From Microbacterium sp. 11MF (lineage in GTDB: Bacteria > Actinomycetota > Actinomycetes > Actinomycetales > Microbacteriaceae): a DNA stretch of 64,000 bases. This document shows, one piece after another, positions 45,070-60,667 of this stretch. The notes under the pieces are model-generated. The model was not told the DNA's origin, made no database searches, and saw only the letters and a list, made by a program, of their open reading frames with translations. The position numbers and the translations under genes were made by a program. How positions within the stretch are numbered: position 1 is the stretch's first letter; each line of letters opens with the position of its first letter. The DNA is taken from NCBI RefSeq assembly GCF_000383475.1, contig NZ_KB911460.1, forward strand, positions 434,001 to 498,000, written 5' to 3'.

Positions 45070-46533
45070 TCACGGGGCGTCGACGCGCTCGTGCTCGTCT
45101 GTCGTCCTCGCACTGCTCAGGGTGAGCGCCCCGATGAGGGAGATCGCACCGACGGCGATGGCGACCGCGATGAAGGCGATCTGTTCGCCCCGGAAGAACG
45201 TCGATGTCAGCGCCGCGTTCCACGGGCCGTAGGGGAGTGTCGTGGCGACGAGCACCGCGATCATCGTCCCGACGAACGCGGTGCCGATGCTCGAGCCGAC
45301 CTCCTGGGCGGTGTCGTTGAGGGCCGCACCCATCGATGTGCGATTCTCGGGCACGGCCCCGATGAGTGCGACCGCGCAGATGGTCATGACGGTACGCAGG
45401 CCTGCCGTCATGACGACCATCGCGACCGCGATGGCGAGATAGTCCCGTCCGACGGCCCAGGCCATCGCGCCGAGGCCGATCGTGAGGAGCACGGCACCGA
45501 TGACGCAGGCGATGCGGTGTCCGAATCGGCGGATCAGCGCCTCGGTGAGCGGGGTGGCGAGGATCATGGTCAGGATGAGGGGCAGATTGGCGAGCCCCGC
45601 GGCCATCGGGCTCCATCCCCAGGCGTACTGGAAGTGCAGGATGAGCGCGAACATCACGCTCGCCATGGCCACGGAGGTGCCGATCTGCGCGAGCGCCGCA
45701 CCGCGGATCGTGCCCACGGAGAAGAGGGAGAGGTCGATCATCGGGGCCGAGGATCGGCGCTCGTTCACGATGAAGAGAACGATGGATGCCGCGGCGCCGA
45801 TCCCGACGAGCAGTGTGACCGGAGCGAACCATCCGAACTGGACTCCGCTCGTCAGCGCGTAGCAGGAGAGCCCGACGGCCATCACGCTCAACGCCGCCCC
45901 GGTCAGATCGAGGCGGTCTCGCGTCAGTCCGCGCGGGTCGTCGGCGGGGACGCCCAGGCGCACTCCGACTCCGGCGAGGAGGGCGATCGGAGCGTTGATC
46001 AGCAACAGCCACTGCCAGGGCAGGTGCGTGAGGATGGTGCCGCCGAGCAGGGGGCCCACGACGAAGCCCGACATGCCGACGACCATCATGAGGGTGATCG
46101 CCCGCATCCGCAGGGCGGCGTCGTCGAAGAGGCGGAACACGAGCGAGTTCGTGATCGGGGCCATCGCGGCGGCGGCGACGCCGAGCGCGGCGCGGACCGC
46201 GATGAGCCCGCCGATGCTGTTCACGAGGAGGACGGCCAGGCTGACCACGCCGAACGTCGCGAGGCCGATCTGCAGGACCCGCCGCCGGCCGAAGCGATCG
46301 GCGATGGAGCCGGCGGTGAGCAGCAGCCCGCCGAACGTCAGCGAGTACGCCCCGGTGATCCACTGCAATCCCGTCGTGTCCCCGCCGAGGTCTCGGCCGA
46401 TGGTCGGGAGGGCGATGGACAGCAGGGTGTTGTCGACCATCTCTACGAAGAAGGCGAGACAGAGCGCAGCGAGCGGAACCCACGCGGCTCTGAGCGAGGT
46501 GTAGACGCGGGGGGAGGTGGTGGTCACCGTCAT
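45070..46533 (-). CDS. DHA2 family multidrug MFS exporter (EmrB/QacA type)
   Basis: 487 residues with fourteen hydrophobic segments. Motif A GSIADRFGRRRVLQIG, the antiporter motif C GMSGFVVGPLLGG and the family-specific opening LAALCLAFFVEMVDNTLLSIALPTIGRDL are present. Proton-coupled export of toxic organic compounds is the family role; the substrate is unknown. ATG 46533 has AGGAAGAG about five bases upstream. Divergent from a TetR repressor with three tandem operators between, the standard inducible-exporter arrangement. A longer frame upstream would read through those operators and is rejected. Confidence 0.93.
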   Translation of the reverse strand: MTVTTTSPRVYTSLRAAWVPLAALCLAFFVEMVDNTLLSIALPTIGRDLGGDTTGLQWITGAYSLTFGGLLLTAGSIADRFGRRRVLQIGLATFGVVSLAVLLVNSIGGLIAVRAALGVAAAAMAPITNSLVFRLFDDAALRMRAITLMMVVGMSGFVVGPLLGGTILTHLPWQWLLLINAPIALLAGVGVRLGVPADDPRGLTRDRLDLTGAALSVMAVGLSCYALTSGVQFGWFAPVTLLVGIGAAASIVLFIVNERRSSAPMIDLSLFSVGTIRGAALAQIGTSVAMASVMFALILHFQYAWGWSPMAAGLANLPLILTMILATPLTEALIRRFGHRIACVIGAVLLTIGLGAMAWAVGRDYLAIAVAMVVMTAGLRTVMTICAVALIGAVPENRTSMGAALNDTAQEVGSSIGTAFVGTMIAVLVATTLPYGPWNAALTSTFFRGEQIAFIAVAIAVGAISLIGALTLSSARTTDEHERVDAP

Positions 46534-46545
46534 GAGAGCTCTTCC

Positions 46546-46602
46546 TATCGAACAGCGTTCGACTATCGAGCGCCGTTCGATACGATAGAACGATGTTCGA
46601 TA
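46546..46602. promoter_or_regulatory. Three tandem TetR operators
   Basis: Three inverted repeats with consensus TATCGAAC-N3-GTTCGATA: 46546-46564 (spacer AGC, right arm GTTCGACT), 46564-46582 (TATCGAGC-GCC-GTTCGATA) and 46584-46602 (GATAGAAC-GAT-GTTCGATA). Centres are 18 and 20 bp apart, so the sites abut and cover the divergent promoters of exporter and regulator. Confidence 0.85.
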
Positions 46603-46633
46603 GATCACAACACTCGGTTTCCCGTGTGATGTG

Positions 46634-47368
46634 ATGGCTGTCATGACCGAGCAGGCGCAACCACCCCGCCGACGCGCCCGCGCTCCGCGCGGGCGCTCTC
46701 GAACGTCGCATTCCATCGACGCCGTCATCGCCGGCGCGATCGAGATCCTCGACGAGTCGGGATCGCAGGGGCTGACGACGCGGGCGCTGGCGACCCGGCT
46801 CGGCGGCGGGCCCGCGAGCATCTACTGGTACGTCTCGGGACGGGAAGAGCTCCTCGACCTGGCCGCCGATTCCGTGCTCGGGGGCGTCCTGGCCGCCGTA
46901 TCAGACGTGGGTCGCGAGGGGAGCGGCGATCCGATCGAGAACGTGAGGACGATCGCCGTCGCGATGTTCGATGTCATCGTCGATCGCCCCTGGCTCGGGG
47001 CGTATGCCATGCGCAACACGGCGCGACAGGTCCATTCGCTACAGCTGTACGAGAAGCTGGGCGAGCAGATCATGCGCCTGGGGCTCTCGCCGCGGGACTG
47101 CTTCCATGCGACATCGGCGATTGTGGGGTTCGTCATCGGCACCGCCGCCGACATGGGGCAGCAGCTCCCTCCGGAGGTCGCGTCCGGCGACGTGGGCCGC
47201 GACGAGTACCTCGCCGGAGCCGTCCACCAGTGGCGGGCCCTCGATCCCGAGGAGTACCCGTTCATCCACCACATCGTGGACGAATTCGCCGGTCACGACG
47301 ATCGTGACCAGTTCCGGGCAGGGCTCGATCTTCTCCTCGACGGACTCCACCTCAGCGCAGGTCGCTGA
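46634..47368 (+). CDS. TetR family repressor of the MFS exporter
   Basis: 244 residues. A basic, disordered N-terminus (QPPRRRARAPRGRSR), a helix-turn-helix (about 27-73, TRALATRLGGGPASIYWYVSGREELLDL), then a TetR_C_1-type ligand domain with NTARQVHSLQLYEKLGEQIM and EEYPFIHHIVDEFAGHDDRDQFRAGLDLLLDGL. Start choice is uncertain among GTG 46631, ATG 46634 and ATG 46643 because no ribosome site is visible. Divergent from the DHA2 exporter and very probably its drug-responsive repressor. Confidence 0.9.
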   Translation: MAVMTEQAQPPRRRARAPRGRSRTSHSIDAVIAGAIEILDESGSQGLTTRALATRLGGGPASIYWYVSGREELLDLAADSVLGGVLAAVSDVGREGSGDPIENVRTIAVAMFDVIVDRPWLGAYAMRNTARQVHSLQLYEKLGEQIMRLGLSPRDCFHATSAIVGFVIGTAADMGQQLPPEVASGDVGRDEYLAGAVHQWRALDPEEYPFIHHIVDEFAGHDDRDQFRAGLDLLLDGLHLSAGR

Positions 47369-47386
47369 TCGGAGGCGGCGTCGGTG

Positions 47387-47701
47387 TCAGCCGGCGACCG
47401 CTTCGTCCTGATCGGGCTCGGGGACGACCCGCAGCCCGCCGGGCGAGTTCGCCGTCGACATCAGCGCGTCGATCCAGGCCGGGTTGATCGGCCCGATGGC
47501 GCGCGAGTGGTAGCGGATGTCCCAGCTCGTCGACACCCCGACCCAGCGCGAGACTCGCCCGCTGCCCAGGCTGGGGTCGACGGTCCACGTGAGGATGAAC
47601 GGCTCGCGGCGTCGGAGCTTCGCCACCATCACGACCTCGAGATGACCGAGGAGACGGTCATCGAATGTGACCGTCTCGCTGCCGAAGGCCAAGCGTCCCA
47701 T
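47387..47701 (-). CDS. Small DUF7882-like protein
   Basis: 104 residues. MGRLAFGSETVTFDDRLLGHLEVVMVAKLRRREPFILTW is the pattern of a small family abundant in Microbacteriaceae, with several copies per genome, often misnamed ATP-dependent DNA ligase in databases; no ligase motif is present. Function unknown; it is compact and probably cytoplasmic. ATG 47701 follows TAAGCT by seven bases on its strand, suggesting a leaderless start. That box lies inside a perfect 15-bp palindrome next to a divergent TetR gene, so it is probably repressed by that regulator. Confidence 0.7.
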   Translation of the reverse strand: MGRLAFGSETVTFDDRLLGHLEVVMVAKLRRREPFILTWTVDPSLGSGRVSRWVGVSTSWDIRYHSRAIGPINPAWIDALMSTANSPGGLRVVPEPDQDEAVAG

Positions 47702-47708
47702 TTCACCA

Positions 47709-47724
47709 AGCTTACGGCGTAAGC
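47709..47724. promoter_or_regulatory. TetR operator over the DUF7882 promoter
   Basis: GCTTACGGCGTAAGC (47710-47724) is a perfect 15-bp palindrome between the divergent DUF7882-like gene and the TetR gene at 47770. The complement of 47709-47714 is TAAGCT, the -10 box of the DUF7882-like gene, so binding would block it. Confidence 0.75.
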
Positions 47725-47769
47725 AGACAAACGAGTGCGAGAAGAGAGAGGATCGGGAAGGAGGCTCCC

Positions 47770-48474
47770 ATGAGCAATCAGTCCGAGCGGTCATCCGGTG
47801 CGAGGTTGAGTCGCGCCGCCATCATCGATGCAGCGCTGAGCCTCGTCGACCTCAAGGGTCCGGCGGGCCTGTCGATGCGCGCTCTGGGGGCGGAACTGGG
47901 CGTCGAGGCGATGTCGCTCTACCGTCATGTGCACGGCAAAGAGGATCTTCTCGAAGGCGTCGTCGACGAACTGACGGCCGAGCTCGTCGTGGTCATGGAG
48001 CGCGAGGCCGAGGGGCACTGGCAGACCTTCCTTCAGAACGTCGCTCACGCGGTGCGGGACATCGCCGTCGCGCACCCCCGCGCATTCCCGCTGATCGCGA
48101 CCCGGCATCCCGCCGCGCCCTGGCTCAGGCCACCGCTGCGGAGCATCGAGGCGGTGGACATCTTCCTCCGGGTGCTGCTTCAGCACGGCTTCACGGACGA
48201 GCAGGCCGTCGGGGCGTACCGGGGGTTCAGCAGCTTCCTCATCGGTCAGTTGCTGCTGGAGGCAGCCGTGCGCGGTGCCGACGTCGGGGGGACGCTCGCC
48301 GGCCAGGGTGAGACCGGGCCGGTTTCCACCGGCGAGGCGCAGATCGCCTCCCTGGATGATGCCCCCGAGGTGCGGCGCCTGCGACCGCTGCTGAGCGAGG
48401 ACCACAGCAAAGAGGAGTTCGACACCGCCCTCGAGATCCTCCTCGACCGGCTCGAGGTCGACCTCTCGCTGTAG
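47770..48474 (+). CDS. TetR family transcriptional regulator
   Basis: 234 residues. Helix-turn-helix (about 13-60, RAAIIDAALSLVDLKGPAGL; LGAELGVEAMSLYRHVHGKEDLLEGV), then a TetR_C_1-like domain with ATRHPAAPWLRPPLRSIEAVDIFL and a final EEFDTALEILLDRLEVDLSL. ATG 47770 has GGAAGGAGG six bases upstream, the best ribosome site in this part of the window. The palindrome at 47710-47724 is its likely operator. The downstream MetQNI-type operon begins 191 bp later on the same strand; whether this regulator also controls it is open. Confidence 0.9.
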   Translation: MSNQSERSSGARLSRAAIIDAALSLVDLKGPAGLSMRALGAELGVEAMSLYRHVHGKEDLLEGVVDELTAELVVVMEREAEGHWQTFLQNVAHAVRDIAVAHPRAFPLIATRHPAAPWLRPPLRSIEAVDIFLRVLLQHGFTDEQAVGAYRGFSSFLIGQLLLEAAVRGADVGGTLAGQGETGPVSTGEAQIASLDDAPEVRRLRPLLSEDHSKEEFDTALEILLDRLEVDLSL

Positions 48475-48665: not shown

Positions 48666-49652
48666 ATGTCAGACCAGAACCAGACCCCGCAGAGCGACCT
48701 CCGCGCCGCCGTCGCGGGAGACAAGAAGCGCACCCGGATCGGCATCGCGGTCGCGATCGCCGTCGTCGCGGTCGGCGCGATCGTCGGCGGAGTCGCCCTT
48801 GCGCTCCCGGCGCTCCGGCCCGCCGATGCCGCCGCGGCCGGCGGTGCAAGCCCAGCTGAGCCGATCAGCGTCAAGATCGCCGTGTCGGAGGACAGCCCGT
48901 TCCAAGATGCGGTCAAGGAGGTCGCCGCCGAGAAGGGCCTGAACATCGAGTGGGTCAACGTCCAGGACTGGGTCCTGCCCAACACCGAGCTCGCCGCCGG
49001 CACGGTCGACGCCAACGCCTTCCAGCACATCCTGTACCTCAGCGCCTTCAACACCGAGAACGGTTCAGACCTCACCCCCGTCTTCTCGACGCTCATCACG
49101 CAGTGGGGGATCTTCTCCGCGACCGCGAAATCCCTCGACGACATCGGGGACGGCGCGAAGATCGCCATCCCCGACGACCCCTCCAACGGAGGTCGCGCGC
49201 TCAACATCCTCGAGGCCGCCGGCCTCATCACCCTCTCGGCCGACAAGGGCGACTTCCCCGCCGTCGAGGACATCACGGCGAACCCGAAGAAGCTCCAGTT
49301 CACCGAGATCCCCGCGACGTCGATCGCTCAGCAGTTCACCGACCCGAGCCTGGCTGCGGTCGTCGTGGGCACGTCGTACTTCGACCCGAGCCAGAACATC
49401 GGCTCCGACGATGCGCTCTTCCTCGACAAGGCGCTCTCCGAGCAGAACCTGCCGTACGTCAACGTCATCGCCACCCGTGAGGACAACAAGGACAACCCCG
49501 CGTGGAAGATCCTCAAGGACGTCTACGCCGACAAGCGCGTCGCGGCGGCCAACGAGAAGGAGAACCAGGGCTCCGTGGTGCTCGTCGACGTCCCGGTCGA
49601 GCAGCTCCGGACCAAGCTCGCCGACCTCGAGAAGCAGGCCGCGAAGAACTGA
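48666..49652 (+). CDS. MetQ/NlpA family substrate-binding protein, membrane-anchored
   Basis: 328 residues. The NlpA/MetQ fold starts at ISVKIAVSEDSPFQDAVKEVAAEKGLNIEWVNVQDW and includes TVDANAFQHILYLSAFN and ALNILEAAGLITL; family members bind methionine or related sulfur compounds. Unusually there is no lipobox cysteine; a helix at about 24-48 would instead anchor the protein. ATG 48666 has GAGGAG about nine bases upstream. First gene of the operon with metN- and metI-like genes and three flavin enzymes. The 191-bp leader shows no SAM riboswitch that I recognise and contains a small ATCTGC/GCAGAT hairpin. Confidence 0.88.
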   Translation: MSDQNQTPQSDLRAAVAGDKKRTRIGIAVAIAVVAVGAIVGGVALALPALRPADAAAAGGASPAEPISVKIAVSEDSPFQDAVKEVAAEKGLNIEWVNVQDWVLPNTELAAGTVDANAFQHILYLSAFNTENGSDLTPVFSTLITQWGIFSATAKSLDDIGDGAKIAIPDDPSNGGRALNILEAAGLITLSADKGDFPAVEDITANPKKLQFTEIPATSIAQQFTDPSLAAVVVGTSYFDPSQNIGSDDALFLDKALSEQNLPYVNVIATREDNKDNPAWKILKDVYADKRVAAANEKENQGSVVLVDVPVEQLRTKLADLEKQAAKN

Positions 49653-49694
49653 CGGCCGCCGCTCGCGACCGCGCCCGGCTGAGATGAGGAACCC

Positions 49695-50759
49695 ATGAGC
49701 ACCGCCATCGCCTTCGAGAACGTCTCCAAATCCTTCACGTCGAAGGGACGCACGGTCGACGCCCTCCGCGACGTCAGCCTGACGGTCGAGAAGGGCGAGA
49801 TCTTCGGGATCGTCGGCTTCTCGGGCGCCGGCAAATCGACCCTGCTGCGCACGGTCAATGCGCTCGAGCGGCCGACGAGCGGAAGGGTCGTCGTCGACGG
49901 TCGCGAGATCTCAGCCCTCCAGGGCCGTGCCCTGTACGCCGCGCGGCAGCGCATCGGCATGGTGTTCCAGCAGTTCAATCTGCTCGAGTCGCGGAACGTC
50001 TACAAGAACATCGCCTACCCGCTGCGGCTGGCGGGCCTGTCCGAGGCCGAGACCCTCGACCGCGTCGAGGAGCTGCTGCGGTTCGTCGGGCTCACCGACA
50101 AGGCGCTCGCGTACCCGTCGCAGCTGTCGGGCGGCCAGAAGCAACGCGTGGGCATCGCTCGCGCGCTGGCCACCCGGCCCGACGTCCTCATCTCGGATGA
50201 GGCGACGAGCGCACTCGACCCGCAGACGACGGGTGAGGTCCTGGCCCTCCTCCGGCGGGTGAATGAGGAGTACGGCGTCACCATCCTGCTCGTCACCCAC
50301 GAGATCGACGTGGTCCGCGAGCTCGCTCACAAGGTCGCGGTCATGGAGGACGGCGCGGTCGTCGAGCACGGCAGCATCTACGACGTCTTCTCCTCGCCGC
50401 GGCATCCGACCACCCGACGATTCGTGTCGTCGGTGCTGCACCACATCCCGTCCGCCGAGGCGCTCGCGAAGATCCGCGCCGTCCATCGCGGACGCCTCGT
50501 CCAGCTGCACGTCGAGGACCGTGACACCAACCACCCGTTCCTCTCGCAGGTCGCCCGCGCGCACGACGTCGACGTCAACGTCGTCTTCGGGGGCGTCGAC
50601 GAGCTGCAGGGGCGGTTGTTCGGCAGCTTGACGGTGGAGCTCCTCGGGACGGATGCCGCCGTGGCTGCCGCCATCGAGGGTCTCCGCGAGACGACCACCG
50701 TCTCCGAGCTGCCGGAACCGGACGCCCGGGTGATCGAGAAGGAGGCCGTTCATGCGTGA
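49695..50759 (+). CDS. MetN-type ABC importer ATPase with NIL domain
   Basis: 354 residues. ATPase domain (1-245): Walker A GFSGAGKST, Q-loop FQQFN, signature LSGGQKQRVGIARALATRPDVLISDEATSALDPQTTGEVL. A C-terminal ferredoxin-like NIL domain (about 268-345, RLVQLHVEDRDTNHPFLSQVARAHDVDVNVVFGGVDELQGRLFGSLTVELL, quoted in parts) normally binds methionine and shuts transport when it is plentiful. Overlaps metI-like gene by eight bases. The linked monooxygenases suggest that the cargo is an organosulfur compound rather than simple methionine. Confidence 0.92.
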   Translation: MSTAIAFENVSKSFTSKGRTVDALRDVSLTVEKGEIFGIVGFSGAGKSTLLRTVNALERPTSGRVVVDGREISALQGRALYAARQRIGMVFQQFNLLESRNVYKNIAYPLRLAGLSEAETLDRVEELLRFVGLTDKALAYPSQLSGGQKQRVGIARALATRPDVLISDEATSALDPQTTGEVLALLRRVNEEYGVTILLVTHEIDVVRELAHKVAVMEDGAVVEHGSIYDVFSSPRHPTTRRFVSSVLHHIPSAEALAKIRAVHRGRLVQLHVEDRDTNHPFLSQVARAHDVDVNVVFGGVDELQGRLFGSLTVELLGTDAAVAAAIEGLRETTTVSELPEPDARVIEKEAVHA

Positions 50760-51417
50760 CTTCGACCCGAACGCCTTCTTCCCCCGCTTCTGGGTCGCCG
50801 TCGGCGAGACCGGGCTCATGGTGGTCGTCGCCTTCGCGGGAGCCGCCGTCATCGGCGTGCTGCTCGGGCTGCTGCTCTACGCGAGCCGCCCCGGCAACCT
50901 CCTGCAGAACCGGGCGATCTTCGCGGTGCTCAACCTCGTCATCAACGTGGTCCGTCCGATCCCGTTCCTGATCGTGGCGATCGCCCTCATCCCGCTCACG
51001 AGGTCCCTCTTCGGCACCGGGCTCGGCCCCCTGCCGCAGACGATCCCGCTCATCATCGTCGCGTGCGTCGCCATCGCCCGCGTCTCGGAATCGAACCTCG
51101 TCGCGGTGAGCCCCGGGTCGATCGAGGCGGGGGCTGCGATGGGCGCGAGTCCCGCCCGGGTGCTCTTCACCATCGTCGTCCCCGAGGCCCTCGGCCCGCT
51201 CACCCTGGGGCTGACCTACATCCTGGTCGCGCTCGTCGACGCGACGGCGGTCGCGGGAGTGCTCGGCGGCGGCGGACTCGGGTCGCTCGCCATGAACTAC
51301 GGATACCAGCGCTTCGACTGGATCTCGGTCGGCATCGTCGTCCTCGCCCTCATCGTGCTCGTCCAGCTCGCCCAGTTCCTCGGCAACGCCGTGGCGCGGA
51401 AGGTGATGCACCGGTGA
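50752..51417 (+). CDS. MetI-type ABC importer permease
   Basis: 221 residues with about five membrane helices. The MetI signature includes NVVRPIPFLIVAIALIPLTR, VSPGSIEAGAAMGASPARVLFTIVVPEAL (coupling region) and LGGGGLGSLAMNYGYQRFDW. It forms the channel for the MetQ-like and MetN-type partners. The start lies inside the end of the ATPase gene, and its stop overlaps the GTG of the first oxygenase gene, so transporter and enzymes are made as one unit. Confidence 0.93.
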   Translation: MRDFDPNAFFPRFWVAVGETGLMVVVAFAGAAVIGVLLGLLLYASRPGNLLQNRAIFAVLNLVINVVRPIPFLIVAIALIPLTRSLFGTGLGPLPQTIPLIIVACVAIARVSESNLVAVSPGSIEAGAAMGASPARVLFTIVVPEALGPLTLGLTYILVALVDATAVAGVLGGGGLGSLAMNYGYQRFDWISVGIVVLALIVLVQLAQFLGNAVARKVMHR

Positions 51418-52595
51418 CCGGGCGGTTCGAGGACCTCCTCGCCCGCGTCGCAGTCGACGCGCCGCAGCGCGAGCGCGAGCGGCGCCTGCTGACCGCGGAG
51501 CTCGCCGAGCTGCGCGAGATCGGCTTCGGCACGTGGCGGGTGCCTGCGGCATCCGGGGGTTCCCCGATCTCGCTGGAGGAGCAGTTCGCCCGCCTCATCC
51601 GGCTGTCCGCCGCGGATGCCAGCCTCGGTCACGTCTGGCGCGGTCACCTCGCGTTCGTCGAGTCGCTCCGGCTGCAGCCGATCGAGCTGGCGCAGCCGTG
51701 GTTCGAGCGGATCCTCGCGGGGGATTTCGTGGGCAACGCGCAGTCCGAACGGCACGACACGGCGCACCTCGAGACGCGGATCGACCGCACGAGCGGCGAG
51801 CCGCTGCTGTCGGGGACGAAGTACTACACGACCGGCAGCATCTACGCGGACTGGATCCACCTCGCGGCCCTCGACGGGGACGAGCGGGTCGCGGTCACGG
51901 TGTCGGCCCACCACCCGGGGGTCCGGTCGACCGACGACTGGGACGGGTTCGGGCAGCTGCTCACGGGAAGCGGGACGACGGTGTTCGATCGCGCGCCGGT
52001 GGCGGACGACGGCATCCTCGTGGCGCCCGCCGAAGGCGCTGAGGCGCGCGGACACCACCTGGGGGCGATCCTCCAGCTCACCCTCCTCGCCGTCATCGCC
52101 GGCATCGCCCAGCGCGCCCTCGACGACACCATCGAGTTCGTGACCCCGCGGCGGCGCACCTTCGGGTTCGCGGGGGAGACACTTCCGCGCGAGGACCCAC
52201 TCGTGCAGCTCGTGGTGGGGGAGCTCGACGTCGTCGCGGCGACGACGCGTCGGCTGGTGCTGTCGGTCGCCGCTGACCTGGGCGCAGCATCCGATCGGGG
52301 AGCGAGCGCGACGGAGATGCGCGAGATCCAGTTCGAGGTCTTCCGACTCCAGGAGCTCGTGCCTCGTCTGGTCCTCGACGCGACGACGCGCTTGTTCGAG
52401 GTGGGCGGCGCATCGGCGGTCGGCACGGGTCGAGCGCTCGACCGTCATTGGCGCAATGTCCGCACGATCGCCTCGCACAATCCGGTCATCCAGCGCACGC
52501 GTGCGCTCGGTCAGGTCGCTCTCACCGGCACGCTGCCGGCGTGGCAGGCGCCGGGAGCGCAGGCGCCCCGTCCTGCGGAGGTCGCGCTCGCATGA
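51414..52595 (+). CDS. Acyl-CoA-dehydrogenase-fold flavoprotein, DszC/SfnB-like (copy 1)
   Basis: 393 residues. Acyl-CoA dehydrogenase fold recognised by LRLSAADASLGHVWRGHLAFVES, the FMN/FAD loop GTKYYTTGSIYADWIHLAA, GSGTTVFDRAPV and the C-terminal LFEVGGASAVGTGRALDRHWRNVRTIASHNPV. That combination marks the group containing DszC and SfnB/SfnC, flavin-dependent monooxygenases of sulfides, sulfoxides or nitrogen compounds, rather than fatty-acid dehydrogenases; no catalytic Glu for acyl-CoA is evident. GTG 51414 overlaps the MetI-type stop. Likely performs an oxygenation step in use of the imported compound. Confidence 0.85.
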   Translation: MTGRFEDLLARVAVDAPQRERERRLLTAELAELREIGFGTWRVPAASGGSPISLEEQFARLIRLSAADASLGHVWRGHLAFVESLRLQPIELAQPWFERILAGDFVGNAQSERHDTAHLETRIDRTSGEPLLSGTKYYTTGSIYADWIHLAALDGDERVAVTVSAHHPGVRSTDDWDGFGQLLTGSGTTVFDRAPVADDGILVAPAEGAEARGHHLGAILQLTLLAVIAGIAQRALDDTIEFVTPRRRTFGFAGETLPREDPLVQLVVGELDVVAATTRRLVLSVAADLGAASDRGASATEMREIQFEVFRLQELVPRLVLDATTRLFEVGGASAVGTGRALDRHWRNVRTIASHNPVIQRTRALGQVALTGTLPAWQAPGAQAPRPAEVALA

Positions 52596-53785
52596 CTCGG
52601 GTCGCCGATGCGGTGGAACGCTTCGCCCCCGTCTTCGACGAGGTGGGGCGGGATGCCGTCGCCCGCGAACTCGCGCGGAGACTGCCGCACGACGAGGTCG
52701 CTCTTCTCCGGCGCGCCGGGTTCACCCGGGTGACGGTGCCCGAGGAGTTCGGCGGCGGCGGTGAGCCGCCATCGGTGCTGTTCGCCCTCCTCGCCGAGCT
52801 CGGCCGTCGTGATCCGAATCTCGCGCAGCTGCTCCGTTCGCATTTCTCCTTCGTCGATCGGACGATCCTGTCGCCCGATTCCGAGGAGCGCTCCCGCAGG
52901 CTCGCCCTGGTGGCCGGCGGCGCCATCATCGGCAACGCGACCCACGAGCGATCGTCGGCGAAGGTCGGCGCGCTGTCGACGACGTTGACGGGGTCGCCCG
53001 ACGGGCTCCGCCTCGACGGCACGAAGTACTACAGCACCGGGACGCTGTTCGCCGATCTCGTCTCCGTCGCCGCGCAGGACGACGACGGGGCTCTCGTCGC
53101 GGCACTCGTGTCGACGGCGGCGGCCGGGGTCGACGTCGTCGACGACTGGCGCGGCTTCGGTCAGCGTCTCACCGGGAGCGGGACGACCGTCTTCCGCTCG
53201 GTCGTCGTCGACGAGGATGCCGTCGCCCGCCGCGTCATCGGCGGTCCGTCGCACGGCGGGGCGTTCGTCCAGCTGGTCCTCCTGGCCGCCGCCGCGGGGA
53301 TCGGGCGCGCGATCGTCGACGACGCGGTCGCGTTCGTGCAGAAGCGCACGCGGACCTACAGTCATGCCTCGGCCGCGACGGCCCGTGAGGACCCACTCGT
53401 GCAGGAGACCGTCGGTCGGCTGTCGGCGCTGTCGTTCACGGCGGATGCCGCGCTCACGGCCGCGGTCGCGGGACTCGACGCGTCGGTCGCCGCCCAGTCC
53501 GCCGGTGTCTCGGGTGATGCGCTGCGCGACGTGATCGCCCCCGTCGAGGCGGCGACGGCCCGCGCGCAGCTCGTCGTCCTCCCCGCCGTGCTCGAGGCGG
53601 CCACTCTGCTCTTCGAGGTCGGTGGGGCCAGTGCGGTCGACACCGACCTCGCCCTGGACCGACACTGGCGTAACGCCCGAACCCTGGCATCCCACAATCC
53701 CCTCGCCTTCAAGGCGCGCGCACTCGGCGACCTGCTGCTCAACGACACCCCCGTGCCCGGGTGGTGGAGCACCGGCGAAGCCTGA
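52592..53785 (+). CDS. Acyl-CoA-dehydrogenase-fold flavoprotein, DszC/SfnB-like (copy 2)
   Basis: 397 residues, paralogous to the preceding gene. It shares the RDPNLAQLLRSHFSFVDR block, GTKYYSTGTLFADLVSVAA, GSGTTVFRSVVV and LFEVGGASAVDTDLALDRHWRNARTLASHNP. It differs in having the normal N-terminal helix bundle with VPEEFGGGGEPPSVLF. ATG 52592 overlaps the previous stop by four bases. Two adjacent copies suggest either successive oxygenations (sulfide to sulfoxide to sulfone) or a heteromeric enzyme. No flavin reductase is encoded in the operon, so reduced flavin must come from elsewhere. Confidence 0.85.
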   Translation: MTRVADAVERFAPVFDEVGRDAVARELARRLPHDEVALLRRAGFTRVTVPEEFGGGGEPPSVLFALLAELGRRDPNLAQLLRSHFSFVDRTILSPDSEERSRRLALVAGGAIIGNATHERSSAKVGALSTTLTGSPDGLRLDGTKYYSTGTLFADLVSVAAQDDDGALVAALVSTAAAGVDVVDDWRGFGQRLTGSGTTVFRSVVVDEDAVARRVIGGPSHGGAFVQLVLLAAAAGIGRAIVDDAVAFVQKRTRTYSHASAATAREDPLVQETVGRLSALSFTADAALTAAVAGLDASVAAQSAGVSGDALRDVIAPVEAATARAQLVVLPAVLEAATLLFEVGGASAVDTDLALDRHWRNARTLASHNPLAFKARALGDLLLNDTPVPGWWSTGEA

Positions 53786-53822
53786 TCCGCAGTGACGCCC
53801 GAAACCTCCAGAAAGGACCCGC

Positions 53823-55211
53823 ATGGCGGAGCGCAAGAAGCTCATCCTGAACCTGTTCGAGATGAACACGGTCAGTCACATCACCCACGGGCTGTGGTCG
53901 TTGCCGGGGAACAACCGGCACCGGATCAACGACATCTCGTACTGGATCGAGCTCGCGCAGATCCTCGAGCACGGCGGATTCGACGGGGTCTTCCTCGCTG
54001 ACGTCGTCGGTGCGTACGACGTGTTCCGGGGCGGCCCCGAGACCGCGATCCGCGAGGGGCTGCAGATCCCCTCGAACGATCCGCTGCTCGTCATCCCCGC
54101 CATGGCGGCCGTGACCGAGCGCCTGGGCTTCGGCGTCACGTTCTCGACCAGCTACGAGCCGCCGTTCTCGTTCGCCCGCCGCATGTCGACTCTCGATCAC
54201 CTCACCCGGGGACGGGTGGGGTGGAACATCGTCACCTCGTACCTGCCGAACGCGGCCCGGAACTTCGGGCTGGCCGATGAGATCCCGCATGATCGCCGCT
54301 ACGCGATCGCCGACGAGTTCCTCGACGTCGTCTACAAGCTGTGGGAGGGCTCGTGGGACGACGATGCGGTCATCGCGGATGCCGCGACCCGGACCTACAC
54401 GGACCCGTCCAAGGTCCGCTACGTCGATCACGTGGGGGAGAACTTCCGCGTCGCGGGTCCCCACCTGAGCCAGCCCTCGCCGCAGCGCACGCCCGTCCTC
54501 TACCAGGCGACCGGATCGCCCGCCGGCATCGAGTTCGCCGGACGCCACGCGGAGCTCGTCTTCACGGGAGGGCGCTCGACGGCGGACTTCATCCGCAACG
54601 TCGAGCAGATGCGGGCGGCGGCCGCCCGCCAGGGGCGCGGCGCAGACGACCTCCGCTTCATCGTGCAGGCGGGCGTCGTCGTCGGTCGCACCGAGGACGA
54701 AGCGGCCGACAAGTGGCGGACGTACCGCGAGAACACGAGCGTCGACGGCATCCTCGCCCACGCCGGGTTCCCCTTCGACCCGACGGCCTTCCCCCGCGAG
54801 ACCCTCGTCCGCGACGCCCTCGCGCAGGCGGGAGTCGCAGCGGATGCGGCGCCGCCGACCGGCCCCGACGCGACGATCGGGGAACTCCTCGACGGGATCG
54901 CCACGGGCCGTGAGGGCCGCTTCTTCGTTGCGGGGACTCCCACCGTCGTCGCCGATGAGATCGAACGGTGGCTCGACGAGGACGGCATCGACGGCATCAA
55001 TCTGCGGCAGTACCACTCCTTCGACACCGCCCGCGATTTCGCCGAGCTCGTCGTGCCCGAGCTGCGCAAGCGCGGTCGCCTCCTCGAGGGCGGTCCGACC
55101 CTGCGCGAGCGTCTGTTCGGGCGCGGACCGCGCCTGCCCGAGAACCACATCGCGGCGCGCTACCGGGGCGGCGCGAACCTCGACGTCCCGGTGGCGCCGC
55201 TGTTCGGGTGA
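53823..55211 (+). CDS. NtaA/SnaA/DszA-type flavin-dependent monooxygenase
   Basis: 462 residues. Luciferase fold of the large NtaA/DszA/DmoA group: opening LILNLFEMNTVSHITHGLW, SYWIELAQILEHGGFDGVFLADVVGAYDVF, FGVTFSTSYEPPFSFARRMSTLDHLTRGRVGWNIVTSYLPNAARNFG (quoted in parts), and FRVAGPHLSQPSPQRTPVLYQATGSPAG. DszA cleaves C-S bonds of sulfones and DmoA cleaves dimethylsulfide, both with reduced FMN. ATG 53823 has AAAGGA upstream. Last gene of the MetQNI-oxygenase operon; together the set reads as uptake, S-oxygenation and C-S cleavage of an organosulfur compound. Nitrilotriacetate-like substrates cannot be excluded. Confidence 0.9.
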   Translation: MAERKKLILNLFEMNTVSHITHGLWSLPGNNRHRINDISYWIELAQILEHGGFDGVFLADVVGAYDVFRGGPETAIREGLQIPSNDPLLVIPAMAAVTERLGFGVTFSTSYEPPFSFARRMSTLDHLTRGRVGWNIVTSYLPNAARNFGLADEIPHDRRYAIADEFLDVVYKLWEGSWDDDAVIADAATRTYTDPSKVRYVDHVGENFRVAGPHLSQPSPQRTPVLYQATGSPAGIEFAGRHAELVFTGGRSTADFIRNVEQMRAAAARQGRGADDLRFIVQAGVVVGRTEDEAADKWRTYRENTSVDGILAHAGFPFDPTAFPRETLVRDALAQAGVAADAAPPTGPDATIGELLDGIATGREGRFFVAGTPTVVADEIERWLDEDGIDGINLRQYHSFDTARDFAELVVPELRKRGRLLEGGPTLRERLFGRGPRLPENHIAARYRGGANLDVPVAPLFG

Positions 55212-55994: not shown

Positions 55995-56972
55995 TCAGCG
56001 CCCGAGCACGCGCCGCAGCCACCGCACCCGCGCGTCGCGCGCGTCGCGGGAGAGCGCGGCGTCGGGGGCGAGCGCGTCGAAGGCGTGGGCGCCGCCCGGC
56101 CAGACGTGGAGTTCGGCGTCACCGCCGGCGGCCCAGATGCGGCGCGCGTAGTCGACGTCCTCGTCGCGGAAGGTCTCGGCCGACCCGACCTCGATGAAGG
56201 TCGCGGGCAGGCCGCCCAGGTCGGCGGCGAGGGCGGGGGAGGCGTAGGCGGGCACCGCGTCGGCGTCGAGGGCGCCGAGGTAGGCCGCCCAGCCGGTCGC
56301 GTTGGCGCGGCGGTCCCATGCGCCGAGACCTTCCATCTGACGAGCGGATGCCGAGTCGTTGCGGTGGTCGAGCATCGGATACACGAGCATCTGGCCGAGG
56401 GCGGCCGGGCCGCCGTGGTCGCGCGCGCGCAGCACCGCACCGGCAGCCAGTCCGCCGCCTGCGCTCACCCCGTGGACGATGACGCGGGCGGGGTCGAGTC
56501 CCCACGCGGACCCCTCCCGCGCGACCCACTCCCAGCCGGCGTAGACGTCGTCGAGCGGGGCGGGGTAAGGGTTCTCGGGCGCGAGCCGGTACTCGACCGA
56601 GACGATCGCACAGCCGAGGTCGAGCGCCGTCGGTCCCAGGTCGGGGAGGACGTCGTGCGCACCGCCGACGACCATCCCGCCGCCGTGGATGTGGAACACC
56701 ACGGGGAAGGGCCCCGGCTGGTCGCGAGGGGTGAGGACGGTCAGACGCACCTCGGTGCCGTCGGCGGCGACCGTCCGGGCCGCGCGGTCCGCGAAGCGTC
56801 CGCCGAGCGTGTAGGCCTCGCGCGTCGGCGGGACGGCTCCGGCGCGGAGCGCGGTGATCTCGCTCGCGGCGAGACCGACGACGACGTCCTCGCCCTCCTC
56901 GAGCGCCCGGCGGACGTCGGGATCGAACGGGGGGTGCGGGATGCCATGTGCGCTGGGGCTCCGTTGCTCCAT
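55995..56972 (-). CDS. Alpha/beta hydrolase of the hormone-sensitive lipase family
   Basis: 325 residues. Oxyanion motif HIHGGGMVVG (HGGG at 96-99), YRLAPENPYPAPLDD, nucleophile Ser170 in GVSAGGG, Asp in ETFRDEDVDY and His in GGAHAFD complete the HSL/AB-hydrolase-3 triad. Cytoplasmic carboxylesterase, probably on short acyl esters. ATG 56972 has GGAGAGGA five bases upstream. Its promoter carries the 16-bp operator also found in front of the sugar importer at 58340, so it may deacylate imported, acyl-decorated sugars. Annotations as arylesterase or acetyl esterase are equally possible. Confidence 0.92.
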   Translation of the reverse strand: MEQRSPSAHGIPHPPFDPDVRRALEEGEDVVVGLAASEITALRAGAVPPTREAYTLGGRFADRAARTVAADGTEVRLTVLTPRDQPGPFPVVFHIHGGGMVVGGAHDVLPDLGPTALDLGCAIVSVEYRLAPENPYPAPLDDVYAGWEWVAREGSAWGLDPARVIVHGVSAGGGLAAGAVLRARDHGGPAALGQMLVYPMLDHRNDSASARQMEGLGAWDRRANATGWAAYLGALDADAVPAYASPALAADLGGLPATFIEVGSAETFRDEDVDYARRIWAAGGDAELHVWPGGAHAFDALAPDAALSRDARDARVRWLRRVLGR

Positions 56973-57004
56973 GCTGATCCTCTCCACGCGGCGGGTGAGC
57001 CACG

Positions 57005-57056: not shown

Positions 57057-58106
57057 TCAGTGCGCGTCGGTGACCGCGCGCACCGAGCCGCGGCTGCGGA
57101 GCGGCATCGGGAGACGCTCGACCGACGCCGGGGACTCCGCGGGCGTGGTGAGCAGCATCTCGACAGCGCGCAGCCCGAGGTCGAAGTGCGGGATGGCGAA
57201 GGTCGTCAGGCCGGGGTGCACCCAGCTCGCGAGCTGGTGGTCGTCGAACGAGACGATCGAGAAGTCGCCGGGCACGGTCAACCCCGCCTCGGACACGGCC
57301 TGGTACGCGCCGAATGCGATGCGGTCGTTGAAGGCGATGATGGCGCCAGAGCGCACGCCGGACGCGATGAGGTCCGCGGTCGCCTTCCAGCCGTCGGCGG
57401 GCAGCCAGATGCTCAGCTTGCGGCCGGAGGCGGGGGAGAGTCCCGCGCCCGTCAGTTCGTCGAGGATCCCCTCGAGGCGTTCCCGCCCGGCGATGGTGCT
57501 GCGGGGCACATCCGCCGGCGTCGGCCCCGCTCCGATGAGGTGGATGTCCCGGTGTCCGCGCTCGAGCAGCAGCCGCGCGGCGCGACGCCCGGCATCCAGC
57601 TCATCCGGGAGTATCGCGTGCGCGTTCTTCGCCGGCCCCTCGGGCAACGTGTTGAGCAGGACGACGTTCCGTCCGGCGAGGGCGGCGGGGACCGGACGCT
57701 CCCGGGTGAACATCGAGGCGAGGATGACGCCGTCGACCTGACGGTCGAGCATCGCGTCGATCAGGCGTTCGCGTTCGGTGTCGTCGCCCTCGTACTCGCC
57801 GATGAACAGCATGTGCCCGTGGCGACGGGCACCCTCGAGGGCGCCCTTGATCATGTCGCCGGCCAGCTGCGACGTCGCGACGGAGTCCGAGATGAACCCG
57901 AGCGTCCGGCTCGTGCCGCTGCGCAGTCCCGCAGAGATCATGTTCGGCCGGTAGCCGAGTTCGGCGGCCACGAGGCGCACGCGTTCCTGCGACGCCTCGG
58001 CGATCCGCATCTCATCGCCTCGGCCCGACAGGACGAGTGACGCGGTCGTGCGCGACACGCCCGCTGCGCGGGCGACGTCGGCGAGTGTCACCCGATTCCT
58101 CGTCAC
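57057..58106 (-). CDS. LacI family regulator of the second sugar locus
   Basis: 349 residues. HTH VTLADVARAAGVSRTTASLVLSGRGDEMRIAEASQERV (6-43, quoted in parts), hinge NMISAGLRSGTSRTLGFI, and a ligand domain with VDGVILASMF, RDIHLIGAG and FSIVSFDDHQLASWVHPGLTTF. GTG 58106 has AGGAGG five bases upstream. Flanked by two identical operators (57006-57021 before the hydrolase gene, 58265-58280 before the importer operon), so it most likely represses both. The inducer should be the sugar carried by the importer at 58340-61488. Confidence 0.92.
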   Translation of the reverse strand: MTRNRVTLADVARAAGVSRTTASLVLSGRGDEMRIAEASQERVRLVAAELGYRPNMISAGLRSGTSRTLGFISDSVATSQLAGDMIKGALEGARRHGHMLFIGEYEGDDTERERLIDAMLDRQVDGVILASMFTRERPVPAALAGRNVVLLNTLPEGPAKNAHAILPDELDAGRRAARLLLERGHRDIHLIGAGPTPADVPRSTIAGRERLEGILDELTGAGLSPASGRKLSIWLPADGWKATADLIASGVRSGAIIAFNDRIAFGAYQAVSEAGLTVPGDFSIVSFDDHQLASWVHPGLTTFAIPHFDLGLRAVEMLLTTPAESPASVERLPMPLRSRGSVRAVTDAH

Positions 58107-58228
58107 GGAGTCCTCCTGTCTCCCGCGATCCTAACGGCGGTGGGGGAGGCGCCGCGGCGCGGGGCCGCAAGCGGATCCCGCCGGCGGATTGCGCGGACAC
58201 GTCTCGGTCACGACACGGCTCCTGCCCA

Positions 58229-58281
58229 TTGACACGTCGGGGATCGGTGGCGCATCATGACCTTGCTAACGCGATTTAGCA
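58229..58281 (+). promoter_or_regulatory. Promoter and operator of the second sugar importer operon
   Basis: TTGACA (58229-58234) and CATCAT (58253-58258) with an 18-bp spacer are followed by TGCTAACGCGATTTAGCA (58264-58281), whose core repeats the hydrolase operator in the opposite orientation. The operator covers the expected transcription start. Confidence 0.75.
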
Positions 58282-58339
58282 CCGACTCACGTCGACGCTT
58301 TTCCTCCCGAACACCGTGGTTCTCTGAAAGGAGACAGTG

Positions 58340-59704
58340 ATGTCTCGACTCACACAGCGCCCCCTCCGCCCGCTCATCCTCGCCGGTGTCCTCACCTCGC
58401 TCGCCGTGGCCGTCACCGCGTGCGCCCCTCCCGGAGGGACCGCGGCACCGCAGGCATCCTCGACCGCCGACTTCGGGGCGAACGGCCCCACGTGCGGTGA
58501 CGAGGACGTCGTCCTCAGCGGCTACTTCGAGACCGGCTTCCCGCTGCCGAAGGACCTCACCGACGAGTTCACGAAGCAGTACCCGAACGTGACCTTCGAC
58601 ATCCGTGAGGACCAGTTCGCCGTCATCACGCAGAACGCACCGCGCGTCCTGCAGGACTCGCCGCCGGACCTCATGCGCCTGCCGCAGATGTCCGAGCTCG
58701 CCACCGACGGGCTCCTCCTCGACCTCGACCCCTACGCCGAAGCATTCGGCTGGACGACGTGGCCCGAGTCGCAGCTCCAGCAGTTGCGGGTCGACGAGAA
58801 CGGTCGTCGCGGCAGCGGCCCGCTCTACGCGCTCGGCCTCAACTACTCGATGACCGGCGTCTTCTACAACAAGAGCCTCGCCGAGAAGATCGGCATGACC
58901 GAGGCTCCGAAGACCCTCGACGAGTTCGACGCCGCTTTGAAGGCGGCGAAGGATGCCGGCATCACGCCGATCACACAGTTCAACGGCGGCGCGACCGGTG
59001 GTCTGGCCTTCCCGCTGCAGGCGCTCATGGCGTCCTATGGCGACCCGGCCAAGATCAACGACTGGATCTTCCAGCAGCCCGGCGCCTCCATCGACACCCC
59101 CGAGAACCTCGAGGCGGCAAAGCACCTCAAGAAGTGGATCGACGAGGGCTTCTTCGCCGACGACATCAACTCGCTCGACTACGCGCAGATGATGAGCCGC
59201 TTCATCGGTGGAGACTCGCTCTTCATGTTCGACGGCGACTGGGAGTCGGGCAACCTCGACACCCAGATGCCCGGCGAGGCCGGCTTCTTCCTCATGCCCC
59301 CGCGTGAAGAGGGCGGCCAGATCGGTGCGATGTCCGCTCCGCTGACCTACGGTGTCGCAGCCACGGCGAAGCACCCCGACTGCGCCGCGTTCTTCCTGAA
59401 CTGGACCGCGACGAACGAGAAGGCCCGCACGATCGGCGTCGAGGTCGGCGGCTCGCACCCGATGGGCCCTGCGGACGCGTTCATGCCTCCCGTCAAGGAG
59501 GGCTCGACCACGGCTGCGACGCTCGCCGCCGGTGCTCAGCTGTCCGAGGCGAACGGTGCGATGGACTTCATCGCCAACGCGACCGGCGCGATCTACGCCC
59601 AGAGCTGGACGCCCAACCTGCAGAAGCTCGTCGCCGGCGAGCAGACCCCCGAGGGCCTGCTGTCGTCCGTGCAGTCCGACTACGAAAGCCAAATCGGGAA
59701 CTGA
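58340..59704 (+). CDS. Sugar-binding lipoprotein (SBP family 1)
   Basis: 454 residues. Lipobox VTAC (Cys28), then a family 1 sugar-binding fold: VVLSGYFETGFPLPKDLTDEFTKQYPNVTFDI, DLMRLPQMSELATDGLLLDLDPYAE, YALGLNYSMTGVFYNKSLAEKIGMTEAPKTLDEFDAALKAAKDAG (quoted in parts). ATG 58340 has AAAGGAG six bases upstream; the in-frame GTG three bases earlier is less likely. Binding subunit of the importer whose permeases follow. The ligand is unknown; the downstream beta-propeller hydrolase suggests an oligosaccharide. Confidence 0.94.
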   Translation: MSRLTQRPLRPLILAGVLTSLAVAVTACAPPGGTAAPQASSTADFGANGPTCGDEDVVLSGYFETGFPLPKDLTDEFTKQYPNVTFDIREDQFAVITQNAPRVLQDSPPDLMRLPQMSELATDGLLLDLDPYAEAFGWTTWPESQLQQLRVDENGRRGSGPLYALGLNYSMTGVFYNKSLAEKIGMTEAPKTLDEFDAALKAAKDAGITPITQFNGGATGGLAFPLQALMASYGDPAKINDWIFQQPGASIDTPENLEAAKHLKKWIDEGFFADDINSLDYAQMMSRFIGGDSLFMFDGDWESGNLDTQMPGEAGFFLMPPREEGGQIGAMSAPLTYGVAATAKHPDCAAFFLNWTATNEKARTIGVEVGGSHPMGPADAFMPPVKEGSTTAATLAAGAQLSEANGAMDFIANATGAIYAQSWTPNLQKLVAGEQTPEGLLSSVQSDYESQIGN

Positions 59705-59707
59705 GTG

Positions 59708-60667
59708 ATGGTCTCTGCTCCTCCCGCTGCTGCGCCGGTGGTCTCCACCGGCGCAGCAGCGCTCGACTCGGGGGCGGCTCAGCGCCGCCGCCGGCGTAAG
59801 TTCCGCGCGAGCCTCGCGGCGTACCTGCTGGTGCTGCCCGCCGCGGGCTTCTACATCTTCTTCGTGCTGCGGCCGATCGCCCTGTCGGCGCAGTACTCGT
59901 TCTACGAATGGAACGGCATCGGCCCGGCGACGTGGGTCGGCTTCGCCAACTACGTCGAGGTCTTCAGCAACCCGAAGCTGACGGGTGCGATCGGCAACGC
60001 GTTCGAGCTGATCATCTACTTCAGCATCATCCCCGTCGGCATCGCCCTCGTGGCCGCCAACATGATCCGCGCGATCGCCGCGAGCCGTCTGGCCGCCATC
60101 TCGCGGACCGTCCTCTTCCTGCCGCAGGTCATCCCGCTCGTTGCCGCCGGCATCATGTGGAGCTGGCAGCTGTCGACCAACGGCCTGGTCAACCAGCTGC
60201 TCGGTCTGTTCGGCCTCGGCGGGGTGACCCGTGCGTGGCTCGGCGACTTCTCGACCGCTCTTCCCGCCGTCGGCGTGATCGGCGCGTGGGTGCAGGTCGG
60301 ACTCTGCCTCGTCCTCATCCTGGCGGGCATGACGAAGATCGATCTCGCGCTCTACGAAGCCGCCCGCATCGACGGCGCCGGTCCCATCCGCGAGTTCTTC
60401 AGCATCACGCTCCCGGGCGTCCGCCAGGAGGTCGCGGTGTGCGTCACGGTCACCGTCATCGCCGCGCTCGCGAGCTTCGACATCATCTACATCGCCACGC
60501 AGGGTGGCCCCGGCGACAGCACTCTCGTCCCGGGCCTCCAGATCTTCTATCTCGCGTTCTACCAGCGCGAGGTCGGAACGGCGTCGGCGTTCGCCATCGT
60601 CCTCATGGCCCTCGTCCTCCTCATCGTCCTGCCGCTGCAGCGCATCCTCCGAGGGAAAGAATCGTGA
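59708..60667 (+). CDS. Carbohydrate ABC transporter permease (MalF/UgpA type)
   Basis: 319 residues. Six membrane helices after an Ala/Arg-rich N-terminus; SFYEWNGIGPATWVGFANYVEVF is the usual extracytoplasmic segment and YEAARIDGAGPIREFFSITLPGVRQE the coupling motif. The start is three bases after the preceding stop, and its own stop overlaps the next permease. CUT1 family. Confidence 0.94.
   Translation: MVSAPPAAAPVVSTGAAALDSGAAQRRRRRKFRASLAAYLLVLPAAGFYIFFVLRPIALSAQYSFYEWNGIGPATWVGFANYVEVFSNPKLTGAIGNAFELIIYFSIIPVGIALVAANMIRAIAASRLAAISRTVLFLPQVIPLVAAGIMWSWQLSTNGLVNQLLGLFGLGGVTRAWLGDFSTALPAVGVIGAWVQVGLCLVLILAGMTKIDLALYEAARIDGAGPIREFFSITLPGVRQEVAVCVTVTVIAALASFDIIYIATQGGPGDSTLVPGLQIFYLAFYQREVGTASAFAIVLMALVLLIVLPLQRILRGKES

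Follow-up and report, generated by a model that had tools for sequence, protein, structure and literature searches.

A conserved operon joining a methionine-type importer to SfnB- and NtaA-type oxygenases in Microbacterium sp. 11MF: a candidate for organosulfur uptake and cleavage

The operon and its genes

The window analysed here comprises 64,000 nucleotides of Microbacterium sp. 11MF (contig NZ_KB911460.1, positions 434,001 to 498,000), which we call the host in what follows, and contains at positions 48666-55211 the six genes metQ-metN-metI-fla1-fla2-mono, whose coordinates were read from the sequence (Table 1). The operon that they form is real, conserved and of a known kind; what is unexpected is its metabolic setting. 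As the original prediction had it, the genes from metN through fla2 run into one another, with successive overlaps of 8, 4 and 4 bp, and none of the six encodes a flavin reductase.

Table 1 Genes of the operon, with positions in the 64,000-nucleotide window
Gene	Position	Strand	Description
metQ	48666-49652	+	328 aa; MetQ/NlpA-type substrate-binding protein with N-terminal anchor and without lipobox
metN	49695-50759	+	ATPase with NIL domain; 42-bp gap after metQ
metI	50752-51417	+	Permease; 8-bp overlap with metN
fla1	51414-52595	+	GTG start; 4-bp overlap with metI; acyl-CoA-dehydrogenase-fold (group D) flavin monooxygenase, relative of SfnB/MsuC/DszC
fla2	52592-53785	+	4-bp overlap with fla1; second group D flavin monooxygenase, in a clade separate from fla1
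mono	53823-55211	+	NtaA/DmoA-family FMN-dependent (group C) monooxygenase; 37-bp gap after fla2

Family searches agree with the description of the first five genes as a MetQNI-type importer followed by two SfnB/DszC-like flavoproteins, which are moreover part of a conserved unit and keep the residues equivalent to those of DszC, as detailed below. MetQ passes the Pfam cut-off of Lipoprotein_9 (203.8 bits, cut-off 27) and stays under that of TIGR00363 (156 bits, cut-off 228.85). MetN matches ABC_tran (123.9 bits) and NIL (64.8 bits) in Pfam, with MetN TIGR02314 as its top NCBIfam model (348.9 bits, cut-off 499.7 not reached), and MetI matches BPD_transp_1 (44.2 bits), with MetI NF008049 on top (137.3 bits, under the cut-off of 212). 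For both flavoproteins the top NCBIfam model is SfnB TIGR04022, at 239.6 bits for fla1 and 280.1 bits for fla2, neither of which reaches the equivalog cut-off of 430.9; the DszC equivalog NF043015 is further away still (113.5 and 129.1 bits, cut-off 850). Among the models shown here, these five proteins pass no NCBIfam cut-off, and mono passes a subfamily cut-off, that of the NtaA/DmoA family TIGR03860 (459.7 bits, cut-off 279.7). Codon usage marks all six frames as coding, a result that is not independent because the same frames sat in the training set; stronger evidence comes from the block itself, which is conserved in about 11 distinct genomes.

Conservation of the block

How far does this arrangement extend beyond the host? 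We searched 199 genomes of the family with fla2 at E<=1e-20 and obtained matches in 80, and eight genomes, the host included, carry the block metQNI-fla1-fla2. These are the genomes in which the fla2 match has at least 56% identity (the host, G120, G050, G127, G194, G040, G180 and G099). In all eight, metI, fla1 and fla2 stand together as one block, and metQ and metN are found upstream except in G099, where the contig ends within metN. For the weaker matches, the neighbourhood was read for the 30 best, about 1.5 kb to either side. In addition, the contigs of named genomes were scanned with an alignment of fla1, which gave 567 relatives. Among the best 80, which were kept, the same gene order is seen in Microbacterium oleivorans, Plantibacter flavus and Streptomyces sp. 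NP160, and, cut at the contig end, in two Microbacteriaceae records (L056 and L058). Taking G050 and L054, and likewise G099 and L056, as the same genomes on the basis of common sequence, the block occurs in about 11 distinct genomes.

The variations on this theme are few. Mono follows fla2 in all block genomes except G120 and G050, and in G127, G040 and G180 an insert separates fla1 from fla2, which in all three cases is an aldo/keto reductase gene (Pfam 253.9, 251.1 and 253.1 bits). A quick tree of 104 rows places fla1 and fla2 in two separate clades, each holding the members from these operons, with support of 97 and 100 in the Shimodaira-Hasegawa-like approximate likelihood ratio test (SH-aLRT); the tree came with a long-branch warning, and single placements in it are unsure. 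The two flavoproteins are not each other's nearest kin, and there is therefore no sign of a recent tandem copy. The fla1 clade has one further row, from Microbacterium sorbitolivorans (L057), where fla1 and mono are present and neither metQNI nor fla2 was found. Together, the conservation of the block and the 4-bp overlaps between metI and fla1 and between fla1 and fla2 argue for a single pathway.

The combination of an importer of the methionine type with such enzymes had been called unusual, which does not hold. Among the 80 best relatives of fla1, 12 loci have matches to both metQ and metI, and only three of these represent this operon. The other nine come from Microbacteriaceae, Mycobacterium, Micrococcaceae, Microvirga and a Verrucomicrobia record and show several gene orders. 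In Rhizobium leguminosarum an NtaA-type gene stands beside metI-metN-metQ and msuE, and in Burkholderia multivorans the order is metQ-mono-metN-metI, followed by a gene 32% identical to fla2. MetQNI with SfnB-like and NtaA-type genes thus spans Actinomycetota, Pseudomonadota and a Verrucomicrobiota record, and the synteny search for metQNI near SfnB/DszC and DszA homologues that had been suggested with the original prediction returns 8 of 199 family genomes and 12 of 80 related loci. Many other related loci have pairs of weak metN matches instead, probably oligopeptide-type ATPases. Methionine-type importers, then, pair repeatedly with SfnB/NtaA-type enzymes. Adjacent oxidases, too, have a characterised precedent in Dms1/Dms2 of Acinetobacter baylyi ADP1 (PMC13352529, in part). 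In the open papers to which our literature search extended, such an operon was not seen in the available parts of PMC11852219 and PMC8557817.

An altered methionine-type importer

The binding protein offers the most direct view on the possible substrate. In Neisseria meningitidis MetQ, methionine is contacted by R156, N213, N238, Y81, F98, H100 and Y103 (PMC6739813, in part). In this numbering, R156, N238, F98 and H100 are kept in all nine MetQ members of the operon and Y103 in seven of nine, while Y81 is replaced by W and N213 by G in every one. The MetQ of the window keeps five of the seven contacts, and a methionine-like ligand is therefore plausible; the methionine-like substrate of the original prediction is supported to this extent and called into question by the two fixed changes in the pocket. 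MetQ N229A is dealt with in PMC12357092, of which parts were available.

The likeness to the MetQNI methionine importer extends to its three components and the NIL domain, and the differences go beyond the pocket and the missed model cut-offs of all three proteins. None of the nine operon members has a cysteine among its first 70 residues, and hence none has a lipobox. Each carries a hydrophobic N-terminal stretch, beginning at residue 27 in the window protein, and in all seven sequences of the first alignment this anchor is preceded by an S-[DE]-L-R motif (window 48666-48760).

The host has a second metN-metI-metQ set (G000:C1:1194378-1196665; L134:2379-4666), upstream of a frame that by eye resembles a valyl-tRNA synthetase. 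Its MetQ has a lipobox (LAGC) and shows F98 to S, N213 to W and N238 to L. Judging from these replacements, this other system may not transport methionine.

Oxygenases related to sulfur-oxidising enzymes

Among proteins of solved structure, fla1 is closest to the methanesulfinate monooxygenase MsuC (6u76, 111 bits) and fla2 to a thermophilic DszC (5xb8, 126 bits). The best-scoring named group D relatives of both are sulfur oxygenases, with 8cda described only as a 'probable monooxygenase', and a nitrososynthase is found among the weaker relatives of fla1. H92, N129, S163, W205 and H391 are what we take to be the important or catalytic residues of DszC. The equivalents of H92, N129, W205 and H391 are kept in 12 of 12 fla1 and 12 of 12 fla2 sequences, and because of this both flavoproteins look catalytic; the serine is a threonine in all 24.

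For mono, the description as a DszA/NtaA-type enzyme is right about the NtaA/DmoA family and loose about DszA, which comes only fifth among the solved relatives in the PDB: alkane monooxygenase (LadA, 467 bits) and dimethyl-sulfide monooxygenase (370 bits) lead, followed by hexachlorobenzene dehalogenase (324 bits), riboflavin lyase (282 bits), DszA (208 bits) and YtnJ (176 bits), the last of which we take to be CmoJ. By their names, the solved relatives include enzymes for nitrilotriacetate, ethylenediaminetetraacetate (EDTA), hexachlorobenzene, riboflavin and alkanes. In Komagataeibacter saccharivorans, a 58.6% identical relative is flanked by an acyl-CoA-dehydrogenase-family gene on one side and ssuD on the other, and a flavin reductase gene is close by.

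Two known systems invite comparison. SfnB and MsuC share with the flavoproteins the top family model and, for fla1, the top solved relative, although both proteins stay under the SfnB equivalog cut-off. The 4S pathway likewise joins a group D S-oxygenase (DszC) to an NtaA-family enzyme that cleaves C-S bonds (DszA). In contrast to that pathway, fla1 and fla2 fall far below the DszC cut-off, mono is nearer to other family members than to DszA, no DszB-like gene is among the six, and the operon has an importer.

Sulfur metabolism of the host

In the host genome, which is 99.98% complete, PF01507 (the family of 3'-phosphoadenosine 5'-phosphosulfate (PAPS) reductase) has no match, while all 14 controls matched. 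PF01077 (NIR_SIR) has one, within NirB (973.8 bits, cut-off 578) beside a formate/nitrite-transporter-like gene, and apart from this nitrite reductase the host has no gene of the sulfite-reductase family. At E<=1e-30, the sole host match to SsuD TIGR03565 (158 bits) is the SfnG locus, and none is found in G127, G180, G040, G120 and G050; G194 has a weaker match of 376.7 bits, under the cut-off of the model, which is strict in that only two of three matching controls passed it. The SfnG locus is a second organosulfur locus (G000:C2:546401-549040; L038:6402-9041), where SfnG (607.1 bits, cut-off 383) is divergent from an SfnB-like gene (280.5 bits).

The host has two MetY genes (675.8 and 576.5 bits, cut-off 495.1), a cystathionine gamma-synthase gene (636.7 bits, cut-off 513) and a gene resembling cystathionine beta-synthase (CBS) that stays just under its cut-off (487 bits against 510), and MetY exceeds the cut-off in all six operon genomes tested. 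In the search for flavin reductases, which covered PF01613, one gene was found, on the opposite strand beside the CBS-like gene; at this place (G000:C2:513870-517307; L141:8871-12308) it lies between a MarR-family gene and the CBS-like and cystathionine gamma-synthase genes. It is a candidate source of reduced flavin mononucleotide (FMNH2) tied to sulfur amino acids. Each of nine relatives searched has at least one PF01613 gene.

Is this setting shared by the other carriers of the operon? Of the seven, G099 being 66% complete, G194 alone has PF01507. For PF01077, G194 gives three matches and G127 and G099 give none, whereas G180, G040, G120 and G050 have a single matching frame each (876-907 aa), taken to be NirB by size. 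G127, which is 99% complete, has neither family and hence no siroheme-reductase match. Two genomes of the same genus without a fla2 match (G106 and G164) have PF01507 and several PF01077 matches. Lack of sulfate reduction was nevertheless rejected as a marker of the operon since it is the rule in the family: PF01507 is missing in 161 of 199 genomes and matched in 38. It is found in 7 of the 80 genomes with an SfnB-like match (fla2, E<=1e-20) and in 31 of the 119 without (Fisher p 0.003), a test that ignores kinship and genome size, a dozen of the PF01507-positive genomes being 2 Mb or smaller, and from which we draw no conclusion.

A possible pathway and its alternatives

Our leading interpretation, held tentatively and with slightly less than even confidence, is that the operon takes up and cleaves an organosulfur compound, with a thioether amino acid resembling methionine, or the sulfoxide of such an amino acid, as the most likely substrate. 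The anchored MetQ variant and MetNI would import the compound, and fla1, fla2 or both, as FMNH2-dependent group D oxygenases, would oxygenate its sulfur or act on successive substrates. Mono would then break the C-S bond to give an aldehyde and sulfur at the level of a thiol or sulfenate, and the thiol, or a product of the homocysteine or methanethiol type, would enter metabolism through MetY and reverse transsulfuration. FMNH2 would come from a reductase encoded elsewhere, for which the gene beside the CBS-like gene is one candidate. An aldehyde product would explain why three relatives have an aldo/keto reductase gene within the operon. A more specific proposal, which we regard as doubtful, is a new form of salvage of sulfur-containing amino acids in bacteria unable to reduce sulfate or sulfite: a modified MetQNI would import a thioether or sulfoxide of the methionine type, the two distinct DszC-fold oxygenases and the NtaA/DmoA-family enzyme would carry out an oxidative dealkylation, and the resulting thiol would be used directly by MetY or transsulfuration.

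The closest chemical parallel is the salvage of S-alkylcysteine by CmoO/CmoJ in Bacillus subtilis, in which a thioether amino acid is turned into a sulfoxide and then, by a homologue of DszA/YxeK that cleaves the C-S bond, into a sulfenate and an aldehyde, so that no sulfite reductase is needed (PMC10863075, in part). That system uses N-acetylation and deacetylation, and no acetyltransferase is among the six operon genes (PMC10863075). Mono is, besides, only moderately similar to YtnJ (176 bits against 467 for alkane monooxygenase). After the operon in Streptomyces sp. NP160, the opposite strand carries (L055:12808-17259) a GNAT gene, an MsnO8-type gene, a YtnJ-like gene (282 bits) and another NtaA-like gene that stays under the family cut-off. 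By resemblance, these neighbours look like a cmo cluster for S-alkylcysteine salvage, in this one case. Our interpretation also draws on Rhodococcus IGTS8, where MetQ and MetN proteins are up on dibenzothiophene (PMC8557817, in part), a response that would fit sulfur limitation and not a particular product.

Several points weigh against our interpretation. The host keeps SfnG and an SfnB-like gene without a recognised outlet for their oxidised products, and the missing sulfite genes are therefore no proof against chemistry at the level of sulfite, for whose reduction NirB or some enzyme not yet known might serve. In G194, the operon coexists with PF01507 and PF01077 genes. The absence of PF01507, common to 161 of 199 family genomes, does not single out the carriers of the operon. 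Mono is not found beside the block in G120 and G050, enzymes close to mono act, by their names, on compounds without sulfur, and with W for Y81 and G for N213 the ligand could be something other than a methionine-like compound.

That fla1 and fla2 form sulfoxide and sulfone, that mono releases a sulfinate and that the resulting sulfite is assimilated, along a classical Dsz/Sfn/Dms-like route, is unlikely. The kinship of both flavoproteins to SfnB, methanesulfinate monooxygenase and DszC fits such a sequence, as does the SfnG of the host, and Dms1/Dms2 (ACIAD0427/0428), paired group D oxidases with consecutive locus tags, convert dimethyl sulfide (DMS) to dimethyl sulfoxide (DMSO) and dimethyl sulfone (DMSO2), depend on a separate flavin reductase and are induced about 1210- and 492-fold on DMS relative to sulfate (PMC13352529, in part). 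In Gordonia alkanivorans 135, SfnB, two acyl-CoA-dehydrogenase-family proteins and one NtaA/DmoA protein rise on dibenzothiophene relative to sulfate (PMC11852219, in part), and sfnB regions of Gordonia are covered in PMC9861168, also available in part. By analogy, these responses of another actinobacterium, too, would fit sulfur limitation and not a particular product. With Dms1/Dms2, which we compared by description, the sulfur ends as sulfite for cysteine synthesis (PMC13352529), and a term search of the available text of that paper found no mention of MetQ or 'methionine ABC'. A Dsz/Sfn-type route ending in sulfite is not supported here because it needs a sulfite reductase downstream and the only host match is NirB. 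The host also lacks a PAPS-reductase-family gene and, except at the SfnG locus, an SsuD match, and among the operon genomes G127 is without any PF01077 match. Because of these same absences in a host that has two MetY genes, we favour a thiol or sulfenate as the released product, in the manner of CmoO/CmoJ, over sulfite. That the operon serves organosulfur metabolism in one of these two ways is probable.

Likewise unlikely, in our view, is uptake of a compound that is xenobiotic or contains no sulfur, as a source of carbon or nitrogen or for detoxification, with the flavoenzymes oxygenating nitrogen or carbon. The range of compounds named for the relatives of mono, the nitrososynthase among those of fla1, the two changes in the MetQ pocket, and the TetR genes and drug-efflux-like gene upstream would all suit this possibility. 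Yet the best-scoring named relatives of fla1 and fla2 are, save for 8cda, sulfur oxygenases, five of seven methionine contacts are kept, and MetQNI recurs together with SfnB-like genes; the upstream neighbours have highly identical counterparts in M. oleivorans alone, and even there the second TetR gene has none. Finally, a plain second methionine importer with oxygenase neighbours unrelated to its substrate, which could be the main importer of the host given the contacts lost in its other MetQ, is highly improbable in view of the overlaps of metI with fla1 and fla1 with fla2 and of a block conserved across genomes.

Surroundings and regulatory signals

Upstream, window positions 45070-48474 hold a DHA2-type gene of the major facilitator superfamily (MFS), nearest to the Tet(43) efflux model (708.9 bits, under the cut-off of 999) and divergent from a TetR gene at 46631, and a second TetR gene (47770-48474). 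Downstream, an alpha/beta-hydrolase-like gene (55995-56987) lies two genes after the operon, followed at 57057-61488 by a regulator that from its translation looks LacI-type, divergent from an apparent sugar ATP-binding cassette (ABC) transporter with a binding protein and two permeases.

Six neighbours were compared with 89 loci, and the flanking genes were rejected as members of the operon. Counterparts with 80-90% identity to the MFS, first TetR, fasciclin, hydrolase and LacI-like genes are confined to M. oleivorans, which resembles the host over the whole region, and the second TetR gene has no match at E<=1e-20. Weak matches to the MFS gene (26-35%) in the vicinity of 12 further loci were regarded as generic. 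The hydrolase is the exception, with genes about 45% identical to it standing divergent beside metQ in G127 and G180 (Abhydrolase_3 there).

A riboswitch was considered and rejected, as Rfam gave two tRNAs only. The search of nine regions upstream of metQ led to no shared operator or promoter: perfect 7-base palindromes (gap of at most 8) are common only to the sister genomes G127 and G180, and the motif we take to be McbR-like is missing from all nine. Ten 6-mers are present in at least seven of the nine regions (mean of 3.0 in shuffles), and CGGGCG, counted with its complement, is in all nine (shuffle maximum 8); the shuffles kept only single-base content, and words of this sort are to be expected often in DNA as GC-rich as this. 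A consensus scan gave no sigma-70-like site and one terminator-like site, on the opposite strand.

Implications for sulfur acquisition

What is new here is a conserved operon of this kind in a host without recognised genes for the use of sulfate or sulfite, except perhaps NirB. Oxygenases of the DszC/SfnB type are usually taken to open a route whose end product is sulfite. Should a thiol be formed here instead, annotations as 'sulfur acquisition oxidoreductase' may have to be reconsidered, and the question of where these bacteria obtain their sulfur becomes testable. The altered, anchored MetQ provides a direct handle on the substrate of the operon. Dependence on reduced or organic sulfur may be common in the family.

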